A stretch of DNA of 39,687 nt from Trichococcus palustris (GTDB lineage: Bacteria; Bacillota; Bacilli; Lactobacillales; Aerococcaceae), in contig NZ_FOTD01000021.1 of NCBI RefSeq assembly GCF_900114465.1, positions 1-39,687 on the forward strand, in the 5' to 3' direction. Each line of letters begins with the position of its first letter. The stretch's first letter is position 1. Below the pieces are notes generated by a model. That model was not told the DNA's origin and did no database searches. It saw only the letters and a program-made list of their open reading frames with translations. A program made the position numbers and the translations under genes. Positions 10,711-16,228 of the stretch are shown piece after piece.

Positions 10711-11757
<1,047 letters not shown>

Positions 11758-11864: not shown

Positions 11865-13337
<1,473 letters not shown>

Positions 13338-13349
13338 TTAACTAACTCA

Positions 13350-13380
13350 ACTCTACCACTTCACCTTGACTTTAAGTCAA
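13350..13380 (-). promoter_or_regulatory. MerR-type promoter of the GH1 gene
   Basis: TTGACT (13375-13380), a 19-bp spacer and TAGAGT (13350-13355) on the minus strand. The perfect inverted repeat TTGACTT-T-AAGTCAA (13366-13380) overlaps the -35 box, and the 20-bp operator copy 13358-13377 fills the spacer. Confidence 0.65.
13358..13377. promoter_or_regulatory. 20-bp operator candidate, copy 1
   Basis: ACTTCACCTTGACTTTAAGT, identical at 18 of 20 positions to the site at 13421-13440. Both ends are ACTT...AAGT, a weak dyad suited to a MerR dimer. Confidence 0.65.
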
Positions 13381-13420
13381 CAGGAAATAGGAAATTTTAT
13401 CCATTTGAAAGTTTTACTTG

Positions 13421-13440
13421 ACTTAACCTTCACTTTAAGT
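13421..13440. promoter_or_regulatory. 20-bp operator candidate, copy 2
   Basis: ACTTAACCTTCACTTTAAGT in the same orientation as copy 1 and exactly 63 bp from it, about six helical turns. It overlaps the -35 region of the merR promoter. Confidence 0.65.
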
Positions 13441-13459
13441 TGTAAGCTTTGCCTATAAA
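13429..13459 (+). promoter_or_regulatory. Promoter of the merR / DXS-like operon
   Basis: TTCACT (13429-13434), a 19-bp spacer and TATAAA (13454-13459), again the long spacer typical of MerR targets. An alternative -35, TTGACT, lies at 13418-13423. It suggests autoregulation by the first gene of the operon. Confidence 0.55.
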
Positions 13460-13489
13460 ACAAATTAGGCCAATCAGGAGGTGAAAAAC

Positions 13490-13843
13490 ATGAATATTTC
13501 AGAAGCAGCAGAAAAATCAGGGCTGACAGCGGTAACCCTGCGTTATTACGAACGGATCGGCTTGATCCCACCCGTAACAAGGGGCAACGGCGGCGTCCGG
13601 TTGTATGAAGAATCCGATCTTGGGTGGATCGATTTCATCAAGTGCATGCGCAATGCCGGCTTGTCGATCGAATCTTTGATCGAATACACGGCTTTGTTCG
13701 ATAAAGGAAAAGATACCGTCATTGCAAGGAAGGACATCCTGATCGAAGAACAGAAAAAACTGCAGGAACGTTACGACGAACTAGGAAAAACACTGGAAAA
13801 ACTGAACAAGAAAATAGAACATTATGAACAAGAACATTCTTGA
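13490..13843 (+). CDS. MerR-family transcriptional regulator, AdhR-like
   Basis: A 117-residue regulator. Residues 1-68 are the MerR winged helix (MNISEAAEKSGLTAVTLRYYER-type start, then IGLIPP and GVRLYEESDLGWIDFIKCMRNAGLSI). Residues about 80-115 form the dimer coiled coil (EEQKKLQERYDELGKTLEKLNKKIEHYEQ). It has no metal-binding Cys cluster, so it resembles the AdhR/NmlR aldehyde-responsive branch. The ATG follows AGGAGGTG by six bases. It is the first gene of an operon with the DXS-like transketolase (36-bp gap) and a close paralogue of the gene at 15775. It probably binds the duplicated 20-bp sites upstream; that is inference. Confidence 0.9.
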   Translation: MNISEAAEKSGLTAVTLRYYERIGLIPPVTRGNGGVRLYEESDLGWIDFIKCMRNAGLSIESLIEYTALFDKGKDTVIARKDILIEEQKKLQERYDELGKTLEKLNKKIEHYEQEHS

Positions 13844-13879: not shown

Positions 13880-15646
13880 TTGCATACACTACAAACAACA
13901 ATTATCGATAACGTGAACAGCCCCGCAGACGTGAAGACACTGAACCTCGTTGAAATGGAACAATTGGCTGGAGAGATCCGCTCGTTGGTATTGAACAAGG
14001 TCAGCCAGGTCAGCGGCCACGTCGGACCCAACTTGGGTGTTGCCGAATTGACGATCGCTTTCCACCATGTTTTCGATTCGCCAAAGGATAAGATCGTCTG
14101 GGACGTTTCCCACCAGTCCTACCCTCACAAAATTCTGACAGGCCGCAAACATGGCTTCGTCGACAAAGAAAATTTCCATTCCGTCACAGGCTACACTTCT
14201 CAATACGAAAGCGAACACGACTTCTTCACGGTGGGACATACTTCCACATCCATCAGTCTCGCTGTCGGGATGGCGAAAGCTAGGGATCTGAAGAAGGAAA
14301 CAGGAAATGTCGTTGCTTTGATCGGTGACGGTTCCCTGAGCGGCGGGCTGGCCTTCGAAGGTCTGAACAATGCTGCTGAACTGAATTCCAACCTGATTAT
14401 CATCCTCAACGACAATGAAATGTCGATCGATGAGAATTTCGGCGGTCTATACCGTTCGTTGGCAGAGCTGCGTGCGACCAATGGTGAAGCGTCGAATAAT
14501 CCGTTCAAAGCATTGGGCTTTGATTACCGTTACCTCGAGGAAGGAAACGATTTGACGAAAATGATCGAAACCTTCCGCGAGGTCAAGGACATTGCCCATC
14601 CGATCGTGCTTCATGTCCACACCGAAAAAGGTCACGGCTACGAAAAAGCCACTCAGGAAAAAACGAACTACCATTGGCGTTCACCATTCAACTTGGAAAC
14701 AGGCGAAAGCTTGCGCCCGGCTGCTGGTGAATCGTACAATTCCATCATCATGGATCATCTGATCAAAAAGGTCAACGAGGACGAAATGAAACTGGCTGCC
14801 ATCAATGCCGCCATCCCGGGGCTGTTCGGCCTGAACGCTTTCCAGGCTGCTCATCCGGAGCATTACTTTGATGTAGGCATCGCGGAAGGTCACTCGATTA
14901 CGTTTGCCGCTGGCTTGGCTTCACAAGGAGTCAAACCGGTCGTCTTCCACTCGAGCACCTTCCTTCAGAGAGCCTATGACCAATTGTCACACGATCTGGC
15001 CATCAACGAGTTGCCGGCCGTACTGATCATCGGCGGCGGGAATATCTCTGGCGGAGCGGTGACGCATCTGGGTCTGTTCGACATTCCATTAATCAAGAGC
15101 ATCCCTAATTTCAACTATCTTGCGCCGACAAGCAAGGAAGAACTGCTTGCGATGCTAGATTGGGCGCTGCAACAGGAAAACGGACCGATCGCCATCCGAT
15201 TGCCGAACGGACCGGTTATATCCAGAAAAAATAAGTTTGCCGACTTCCAATCGCCAACCTATGAGATTCTCCGCAAAGGCAACAGAGTGGCAGTCCTGGC
15301 GCTTGGTTCTTTCCTTTCCCTCGGCGAGCAAGTCGCTGAGCAAATGAAGGCTATAGCCGGGGAGGACATCACCTTGATCAACCCGCGTTCCATCACCGCT
15401 CTTGATGTCAAGACGCTGAAGGAGCTGGAAACAAATCATGACCTGATCGTTACTCTTGAAGACGGTTCTTTGGCTGGCGGCTTCGGCGAGCAAATCGCTT
15501 CATTCTATGGAGCCTCAGCTGTCAAAGTTTTGAACTTCGGCGCGAAAAAAGAATTTACGGACAATGTTCCGCTTGAAACGCTTTATGAGCAGTTCCATCT
15601 GACTCCTGAATTGATTGTAAGGGACATCTTGGACACATTGGCATAG
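13880..15646 (+). CDS. DXS-like transketolase with altered substrate site
   Basis: A 588-residue thiamine-diphosphate enzyme, closest in layout to 1-deoxy-D-xylulose-5-phosphate synthase. Conserved parts are SGHVGPNLG (46-53), DVSHQSYPHKILTGR (75-89), the cofactor motif GDGSLSGG (149-156), LNDNEMSIDEN (176-186), the catalytic Glu336 in GIAEGHS, and FLQRAYDQ (361-368). DXS carries substrate-phosphate arginines in DRAG and YPRG motifs; here the same places read IGGGNISGG and RLPNG, so both arginines are absent. It starts at TTG, nine bases after AAAGGAG. No other MEP-pathway gene is near, and most Lactobacillales use mevalonate. Cotranscription with a MerR regulator next to a phospho-glucosidase points to a catabolic or aldehyde-linked transketolase of unknown product. 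Confidence 0.85.
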   Translation: MHTLQTTIIDNVNSPADVKTLNLVEMEQLAGEIRSLVLNKVSQVSGHVGPNLGVAELTIAFHHVFDSPKDKIVWDVSHQSYPHKILTGRKHGFVDKENFHSVTGYTSQYESEHDFFTVGHTSTSISLAVGMAKARDLKKETGNVVALIGDGSLSGGLAFEGLNNAAELNSNLIIILNDNEMSIDENFGGLYRSLAELRATNGEASNNPFKALGFDYRYLEEGNDLTKMIETFREVKDIAHPIVLHVHTEKGHGYEKATQEKTNYHWRSPFNLETGESLRPAAGESYNSIIMDHLIKKVNEDEMKLAAINAAIPGLFGLNAFQAAHPEHYFDVGIAEGHSITFAAGLASQGVKPVVFHSSTFLQRAYDQLSHDLAINELPAVLIIGGGNISGGAVTHLGLFDIPLIKSIPNFNYLAPTSKEELLAMLDWALQQENGPIAIRLPNGPVISRKNKFADFQSPTYEILRKGNRVAVLALGSFLSLGEQVAEQMKAIAGEDITLINPRSITALDVKTLKELETNHDLIVTLEDGSLAGGFGEQIASFYGASAVKVLNFGAKKEFTDNVPLETLYEQFHLTPELIVRDILDTLA

Positions 15647-15668: not shown

Positions 15669-15714
15669 AAAACCATCCAAGCGGACGTTGGACAACGTCT
15701 GCTTGGATGGTTTT
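15669..15714. terminator. Bidirectional terminator between the DXS-like gene and the second merR
   Basis: A 21-bp stem, AAAACCATCCAAGC... (15669-15689) with its complement (15694-15714), one mismatch and a 4-nt loop. A- and T-runs at both ends serve the convergent genes. Confidence 0.9.
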
Positions 15715-15774: not shown

Positions 15775-16152
15775 TTAATGGCTCAGACTCTGCTCGGAAT
15801 CCCGCAAGTCGCCCTCATAGCTTTTGATCTTACCGTTCAGGCGTTCGATCGTTTCGCCGATTTCCTTGTACTTCAAAAGCAATAGGTCCCGCTCTCTGAT
15901 TAGGATATTTTTGCGTTCTTCTGCTGTATCTGTCCCGTCTCTGAATAAAGACGTATATTCGATGAGCGACTCGACGGACAGTCCCGCACTGCGCATACAT
16001 TTTACGAACTCGATCCAGCCTAGGTCATCCTGTTGATAATCCCGGACACCGCCATTTTTACGGGTGACAGGTGGAATAAGCCCTTCTCTTTCATAGTAGC
16101 GTAACGTGGCTGGAGTAACTCCGTTTATTCTTGCAGCTTCAGATATATTCAT
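15775..16152 (-). CDS. MerR-family transcriptional regulator, paralogue of the 13490 gene
   Basis: A 125-residue regulator with the same architecture as the one at 13490. The winged helix begins MNISEAARINGVTPATLRYY and contains EGLIPP and DLGWIEFVKCMRSAGLSVESLIEYTSLF, nearly identical to its partner. The C-terminal coiled coil is more diverged and ends in an acidic tail. The ATG at 16152 aligns with the partner's start; a TTG one codon earlier is also possible. The gene is convergent with the DXS-like gene. Two related regulators bracketing one enzyme gene suggests duplication followed by division of labour, for example different inducers acting on shared or related sites. Confidence 0.9.
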   Translation of the reverse strand: MNISEAARINGVTPATLRYYEREGLIPPVTRKNGGVRDYQQDDLGWIEFVKCMRSAGLSVESLIEYTSLFRDGTDTAEERKNILIRERDLLLLKYKEIGETIERLNGKIKSYEGDLRDSEQSLSH

Positions 16153-16228
16153 CAAGGTATCATCCTTTCTCGTATATAGTATACTCCACTTAGCAATCCA
16201 TATTAAATCTAATGAACTTTGTTTTACT

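Follow-up and report, generated by a model that had tools for sequence, protein, structure and literature searches.

The window analysed here is the whole stretch of 39,687 nucleotides from Trichococcus palustris, and it contains a dxs-like gene (13880..15646, + strand), an open frame with a TTG start that is preceded by a Shine-Dalgarno-like GGAG and encodes a protein of 588 amino acids. The TTG start is kept in Trichococcus paludicola, and a terminator-like hairpin of 20 pairs (15669..15714, +) lies downstream of the gene. On the same strand, 36 bases separate the dxs-like gene from the stop codon of merR1 (13490..13843, +; a GTG at 13481 is also allowed as start). The best family of MerR1 is NF041849, matched at 146 bits and thus under the cut-off of 175, and its conserved sensor cysteine (KCMR) lies in IDFIKCMRNAGLS, at a position that aligns in 15/15 regulators adjoining dxs-like genes. 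Divergent from merR1 and the dxs-like gene runs a gene for a GH1 6-phospho-beta-glucosidase (11865..13313, −), and a second NmlR/AdhR-like regulator that keeps the cysteine, MerR2 (15775..16155, −), is convergent with the dxs-like gene. The initial annotation had placed an aldehyde-type MerR regulator and a phospho-beta-glucosidase beside the gene, and both identifications hold, the regulator being of the NmlR/AdhR-like type. Beyond the GH1 gene lies an aldo/keto reductase gene (10711-11742, −), whose nearest NCBIfam model is the YdjG methylglyoxal reductase at 163 bits, far under the cut-off of 550; aldo/keto reductases recur beside some relatives of the dxs-like gene.

The interval between the GH1 gene and merR1 holds two MerR-type promoters, one facing each way. 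The promoter of merR1 and the dxs-like gene (13418..13448, +) is composed of TTGACT, a 19-base spacer with a dyad, and TAAGCT, and that of the GH1 gene (13350..13380, −) of TTGACT, a 19-base spacer and TAGAGT. They are the two matches to TTGACT-N19-TARNST in the whole window, and the chance figure of 0.02 attached to them belongs to a pattern built from these same two sites and is not a probability. A 20-base operator is repeated in both sites with 90% identity. Spacers of 19-20 bases are described for promoters of the metal-sensing MerR family (PMC5045206), and the GH1 gene probably belongs to the same regulon as merR1 and the dxs-like gene.

The dxs-like product has the DXS fold and the Pfam domains DXP_synthase_N (PF13292, 287 bits), Transket_pyr and Transketolase_C. 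Its best NCBIfam family is PRK12315 (NF008968; 921 bits, cut-off 510); NF003933 (PRK05444) is matched at 630 bits, the dxs model TIGR00204 at 512 bits, above its cut-off of 466, and the transketolase equivalogs TIGR00232 (52 vs 682 bits) and NF004559 (123 vs 488 bits) are failed. Of the 398 genomes of the window's class, 309 reach the 510 bits set as the threshold of NF008968, and the loci inspected among these are mostly canonical DXS; since canonical DXS also passes this cut-off, NF008968 cannot separate it from the arginine-less form described below. An AlphaFold2 model of the window protein, built with 29 sequences, reached a mean pLDDT of 91.3 and a pTM of 0.89. Among the 50 chains listed, the nearest solved structure to this model is 9kpq (TM 0.96, 53% identity), and DXS chains follow at TM 0.81-0.91 and 31-36% identity.

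Alignment with E. coli DXS (L035), which served as the reference for the pocket columns, bears out the initial annotation in both halves of what it had claimed for the active site, namely that the thiamine-diphosphate and catalytic elements of DXS are kept and that the arginines holding the phosphate of glyceraldehyde 3-phosphate (GAP) are lost. The motifs GDGSLSGG and LNDNEMSI and the catalytic Glu336 (E. coli E370) are present, and H49, H80, H122, D152, N181, H299, E370, R398 and H431 (E. coli numbering) are all kept, R398 and H431 as Arg364 and His396 of the window protein. By contrast with canonical DXS, the arginine of the DRAG motif (E. coli R420) is replaced by Gly386 and that of the YPRG motif (R478) by Asn443. 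R99 (Glu97), D427 (Gly392) and Y392 (Ser358), which the initial annotation had not listed, are likewise absent; two of these, D427 and R99, belong to the lactyl-ThDP network. About 30 residues of E. coli DXS between approximately positions 196 and 240 have no counterpart. In canonical DXS, R420, R478 and Y392 are reported to line the GAP pocket (PMC11019550), and D427, H431 and R99 to contribute to the persistence of lactyl-ThDP (PMC11908136). The reported effects of losing the arginines are severe, an R478A variant of the E. coli enzyme having a raised Km for GAP of 1400 uM (PMC11019550) and an R420A variant of DXS an extremely inefficient turnover (PMC11908136). Judged by its residues, the window protein retains the catalytic half of DXS and has an exchanged acceptor half.

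This exchange is not peculiar to Trichococcus. The pocket columns were counted in 128 rows, 39 of them canonical DXS (that of E. coli, 24 encoded by genomes in the same class as the window genome and 14 by dxr-positive carriers of the arginine-less gene) and 89 belonging to the arginine-less clade. R99, Y392, R420, D427 and R478 each occur in 39/39 canonical rows, whereas in the clade R99 survives in 1/89 (with Lys in one further row), Y392 in 12/89, R420 in 3/89 (L047, L151 and L152), D427 in 0/89 and R478 in 1/89 (L085), and no clade row holds two of R420, D427 and R478 together. Position 420 is taken in the clade by Trp (22 rows), Gly (19), Tyr (12), Thr (9) and others. H49, H80, H122, D152, N181, H299, E370 and R398 are invariant across all canonical and clade rows, and H431 is kept in 88/89 of the clade. 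Outside this count stand 22 named rows: L033 and L092, which run into contig ends; L055 and L102, whose frames are broken; L141, which is shorter than 500 amino acids; 16 repeats of included genes; and L056, excluded in error as partial. The last has Trp at 420 and Ala at 478, in line with the clade, and L092 retains R420. Six columns have also become basic in the clade, and the window protein shares this gain at three of them, K210, K261 and K557, with K261 four residues ahead of the catalytic His265. A differently placed phosphate or carboxylate could, as far as the sequence tells, be held by these lysines, which bears on the refuting condition set by the initial annotation, conserved arginines at another place in the pocket.

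In a FastTree phylogeny the 89 arginine-less rows are split from the 39 canonical DXS on one branch with an SH-like support of 100, and the window protein groups with the former. One scan of genome contigs yielded at least 595 stretches; a relative was encoded in 586 of these, and the 80 best were retained. Carriers among these 80 include Trichococcus, Enterococcus, relatives of Lactobacillus, Lactococcus, Streptococcus, Clostridium, Ruminococcus, Roseburia, Veillonella, Selenomonas and Prevotella, together with metagenome-assembled genomes named Treponema, Gastranaerophilales, Alphaproteobacteria and Elusimicrobia; going by their names, we take many of these 80 to be anaerobes. L009, a clade member by score, was rejected, being a canonical DXS with both DRAG and YPRG. 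Within the window's own genus 10/13 genomes (9/11 of those of good quality) have a homologue with at least 65% identity, hence the gene is accessory there. Two irregular cases were seen: in Lactococcus fujiensis an in-frame stop splits the dxs-like gene (L043 10004-11752) into 459 and 119 amino acids, perhaps making it a pseudogene, and the single genome of Selenomonas G413 has, besides a canonical DXS, DXS-like sequence at three more places, one of which is the arginine-less L093 and another of which has an internal stop.

A DXP synthase should be accompanied by a use for DXP, and the initial annotation had noticed that no MEP-pathway gene lies nearby. At the level of the whole genome dxr and PdxJ gave no match, no second full-length DXS was among the matches listed, and HMG-CoA synthase and mevalonate-diphosphate decarboxylase are present, the MEP pathway being judged by dxr. 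A DXS serving isoprenoid synthesis in the Trichococcus host was rejected on the absence of dxr and the presence of the mevalonate markers, and one serving pyridoxal on the absence of PdxJ. For thiamine, the window genome has six partial ThiG matches (20.5-29.3 bits), four of them above the Pfam cut-off of 23, a threshold that 13/14 control genomes pass too. The pathway survey covered 34 genomes that carry the gene, selected mainly from those with names, in which dxr (18/34) and HMG-CoA synthase over cut-off (16/34) never overlap. The 16 carriers with HMG-CoA synthase are the Lactobacillales, the window genome among them; dxr and PdxJ were each found in 0/16 of these, and mevalonate-diphosphate decarboxylase passes its cut-off in 15/16, the miss being G398, a genome of 1.9 Mb that is small for its genus. 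ThiG matches occur in 9/16, all partial (19.7-35.5 bits, within frames of 232-344 amino acids), and rise above the Pfam cut-off in 7/16 including the window genome; because 13/14 named control genomes pass as well, we judge these weak matches to be other barrel enzymes, and a role of the window enzyme as a DXS for thiamine to be unlikely.

A canonical DXS (at least 668 bits) accompanies the arginine-less gene in 14 of the 18 dxr-positive carriers, in all 14 with the arginines in place, and the four carriers without one are two Veillonella, Allisonella and Gastranaerophilus, for which a DXS role of the arginine-less gene is possible. In the Veillonella family, surveyed in 28 genomes, dxr is found in 28/28 and a DXS match as strong as that of the canonical enzyme in 0/28, and a full-length DXS-like gene is present in 16/28 by our reading of the match list, that of G439 in broken frames. 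Pocket columns of 9 of these 16 genes retain R478 or D427 in no case and R420 in two. The idea that the arginine-less form is the sole DXS of Veillonella is weakened by the remaining 12/28 genomes, which have dxr and neither the canonical nor the arginine-less enzyme. With a separate canonical DXS in 14/18 dxr-positive carriers and neither form in 12/28 Veillonella-family genomes, the distribution of the arginine-less protein does not follow a requirement for DXP. Each of the 28 genomes also carries the C-terminal half of a split transketolase-like enzyme (frames of 314-329 amino acids, 207-234 bits against TIGR00204), and this split enzyme is a candidate DXP maker in the family.

Neighbouring genes were taken from a simple ORF-calling script that missed some, such as the upstream MerR of L036, which was found by eye. 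MerR is the most recurrent neighbour family of the dxs-like genes, with 14/157 genes at the ±1 positions vs 5/1092 at positions 2 to 12. In a Pfam scan of 143 of 150 ±1 neighbours (those of at least 80 amino acids; five were left out for length and two as pieces of dxs-like genes) there were 14 MerR, five Flavodoxin_4, five Flavodoxin_2, four aldo/keto reductase, four FMN_red and three GH1, where one protein may match several families. The NmlR/AdhR cysteine is kept in all 15 adjacent MerR proteins, L036 included, and in four of five further MerR encoded in the loci, being absent from L103. This cysteine is described as absolutely conserved in the NmlR clade, and a C52A exchange in AdhR as abolishing the response to formaldehyde (PMC4776306). 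Several loci have carbonyl- or redox-related neighbours, namely flavodoxins, aldo/keto reductase, FMN reductase, iron alcohol dehydrogenase, DJ-1/PfpI, CMD and cupin. For example, the order in Clostridium cuniculi (L041) is beta-glucoside PTS, GH1, dxs-like gene, MerR and iron alcohol dehydrogenase, with an aldo/keto reductase on the opposite strand, and that in L099 is CMD, cupin, MerR and dxs-like gene. Many ±1 neighbours are unrelated to carbonyls, and most loci are without an adjoining MerR. Sugar genes recur as well: of eight GH1 genes forming one similarity cluster, seven lie within three genes of a dxs-like gene, and an FGGY kinase adjoins the dxs-like gene in some Lactobacillus loci. 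GH1 as a fixed partner was rejected, since the upstream sequence differs in 3/11 rows of the genus.

The promoter type recurs across the clade. When TTGAC..TA...T was searched in 82 upstream regions, 30 matches had a spacer of 19 bases, and no other spacer length between 14 and 22 gave more than three. With a dyad rule, which was itself drawn from sites in the same data, a MerR-type promoter was found before 22/80 arginine-less genes (two of the 82 were dropped for having fewer than 120 bases upstream), 0/38 canonical DXS genes, whose starts are approximate, and 6/1067 other genes of the same loci. The same rule at spacers of 15, 17 and 21 gave 0/80 arginine-less genes, and eight of the 1067 other genes at 17. 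A looser dyad scan gave 21/80 vs 17/1067, and when it was run at six other spacers each let through between zero and two of the 80 genes; the promoter in the window is not one of those 21. Under the dyad rule 58/80 clade genes have no such promoter, and 13 of the 22 promoter-bearing genes have no MerR within two genes in the ORF table. Related loci are not independent, although the promoter label requires 16 changes on a tree of 77 rows.

In the genus, the site TTGACTTAACCTT(C/A)ACTTTAAG(T/G)TGTAAGCT is kept in 11/11 aligned rows, L036 and L167 apparently coming from a single genome, and the promoter of the dxs-like gene stays also in the three rows whose upstream sequence differs. A divergent dxs-like copy in G459 (L172) has a 19-base-spacer site of its own, and MerR1 was not found at that locus. 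A third operator in the window genome, with two mismatches, lies in TTGACT-N19-TATGCT (L163 1498-1530, G000:C14) before a gene for DUF3737, a domain of unknown function, and by count such sites do not exceed the backward-pattern control (three sites vs five control matches at up to three mismatches). A DUF3737-like gene (L037 9081-9974) also lies directly upstream of the dxs-like gene in Enterococcus pallens. DUF3737 and the dxs-like gene are connected in two ways, in the window genome through a MerR-type promoter that is nearly identical and in E. pallens through adjacency. No paper naming DUF3737 was found in the open-licence PubMed Central literature.

From the residue losses, the clade, the genome context and the architecture, conservation and enrichment of the promoter, we consider that the window enzyme is very probably not a DXP synthase, and we propose with moderate confidence that it is a carboligase which depends on pyruvate, acts on reactive aldehydes that are probably not phosphorylated, and is induced under carbonyl stress. 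Pyruvate is the presumed donor because the catalytic residues are conserved; it would be activated on ThDP to lactyl-ThDP and then hydroxyethyl-ThDP, and the two-carbon unit would pass to a small reactive carbonyl lacking a phosphate at the place where DXS expects it. Canonical DXS is reported to take aldehydes other than GAP (PMC11908136). Candidate acceptors here are formaldehyde, methylglyoxal, glycolaldehyde and an aldehyde released from a beta-glucoside, and the product would be a less toxic acyloin, which would make detoxification the purpose of the reaction. MerR1, presumably cotranscribed with the dxs-like gene, would sense the carbonyl through its cysteine and, binding both operators, would activate both the operon to which it belongs and the divergent gene for the phospho-beta-glucosidase from the stretched promoters with 19-base spacers. 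NmlR/AdhR-type control repeated over several phyla suggests a carbonyl as the signal and probably also as the acceptor. That the promoter type is shared with GH1 in Trichococcus allows the guess that the aglycone is the aldehyde in question. The initial annotation had suggested an undescribed transketolase or acyloin synthase for another aldehyde; the part concerning the aldehyde probably stands in the form of the carboligase, and the word undescribed does not, given that PRK12315 and 9kpq exist.

That the protein still makes DXP (or 1-deoxyxylulose) in a re-shaped pocket and feeds some unknown DXP-using route appears rather improbable to us. The DXS fold, the passed TIGR00204 cut-off, the gained basic residues that could bind phosphate elsewhere, the four dxr-positive carriers without canonical DXS and the partial ThiG matches over the Pfam cut-off (7/16 carriers, with the same in 13/14 controls) are compatible with it, but arginine variants of E. 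coli DXS are reported to be crippled with GAP (PMC11019550, PMC11908136). The absence of dxr and PdxJ from the Lactobacillales carriers, the separate canonical DXS in most dxr-positive carriers, the Veillonella-family genomes that have dxr and neither DXS form, and the carbonyl-type control all speak against a DXP synthase as well.

Two further readings keep the ThDP chemistry and change its use. The enzyme might be a lyase or two-carbon transferase acting on a ketose or alpha-ketol derived from a beta-glucoside or another sugar rather than a detoxifying ligase, which we regard as unlikely: the promoter type common to the window GH1 gene, the clustered GH1 genes close to dxs-like genes, the beta-glucoside PTS and GH1 genes upstream in C. 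cuniculi and the FGGY kinase of some Lactobacillus loci would fit it, yet GH1 makes up only three of the 143 scanned ±1 neighbours, the dxs-like promoter stays where the upstream sequence changes in the genus, and the regulator type points to electrophiles. Alternatively, it could be a pyruvate decarboxylase or oxidase triggered by aldehyde or O2, forming peracetate or acetate as a redox or stress device with no specific ligation product. Canonical DXS is reported to accept O2 (PMC11908136) and can itself reduce O2 at the carbanion (PMC11019550), and the D427 and R99 implicated in lactyl-ThDP persistence (PMC11908136) are missing from almost every clade row. Flavodoxin and FMN-reductase neighbours would also suit such a device. 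With many carriers presumably anaerobes, however, O2 reduction is unlikely to be the main job, and we hold this last reading to be very doubtful.

Among known systems, canonical DXS (E. coli Dxs and D. radiodurans 2o1x/6ouv) shares the whole fold, the ThDP site and the catalytic residues with the window protein, which differs in having none of R99, Y392, R420, D427 and R478, in residing in a genome without dxr, and in its regulation. The AdhR regulon of B. subtilis comprises adhA, yraC and yraA (PMC4776306). AdhR/NmlR regulons resemble some dxs-like loci in the MerR with a conserved cysteine, the 19-base-spacer promoters and partners of the CMD, alcohol dehydrogenase and aldo/keto reductase types; unlike them, MerR1 stays under the NmlR cut-off, and the consulted portion of PMC4776306 names no DXS-like enzyme for these regulons. 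The structure 9kpq, released on 2025-08-20 under the title 'A ThDP-dependent enzyme belonging to the DXPS-like subfamily', belongs to the same clade and is likewise without the DRAG and YPRG arginines, and differs from the window protein by Trp at position 420 and a kept Tyr392 in the alignment; the rows nearest to it are Clostridia-like. The subfamily is thus already on record as PRK12315 and 9kpq, and this prior recognition by others lowers the novelty of our finding. In open-licence PubMed Central papers we found none carrying the code 9kpq, no published role for the PRK12315/DXPS-like subfamily in titles and abstract openings of the papers listed, and no report in print of the clade's link with MerR-type promoters over several phyla, which appears to be new.

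Both forms are named DXS in databases, and the entry enzyme of the MEP pathway is therefore wrongly implied in genomes that have mevalonate markers and no dxr. The clade represents a natural experiment in which a ThDP enzyme swaps its sugar-phosphate acceptor and keeps its catalytic residues, and it is a possible source of biocatalysts forming C-C bonds. The promoter evidence gives the subfamily a direction, that of carbonyl stress. Tentatively, and with less assurance than for the window enzyme itself, we suggest that many gut, rumen and oral bacteria may possess a second, DXS-derived enzyme that joins reactive aldehydes to pyruvate under a cysteine-sensing MerR switch, a carbonyl-stress enzyme standing under the database name of an isoprenoid enzyme.
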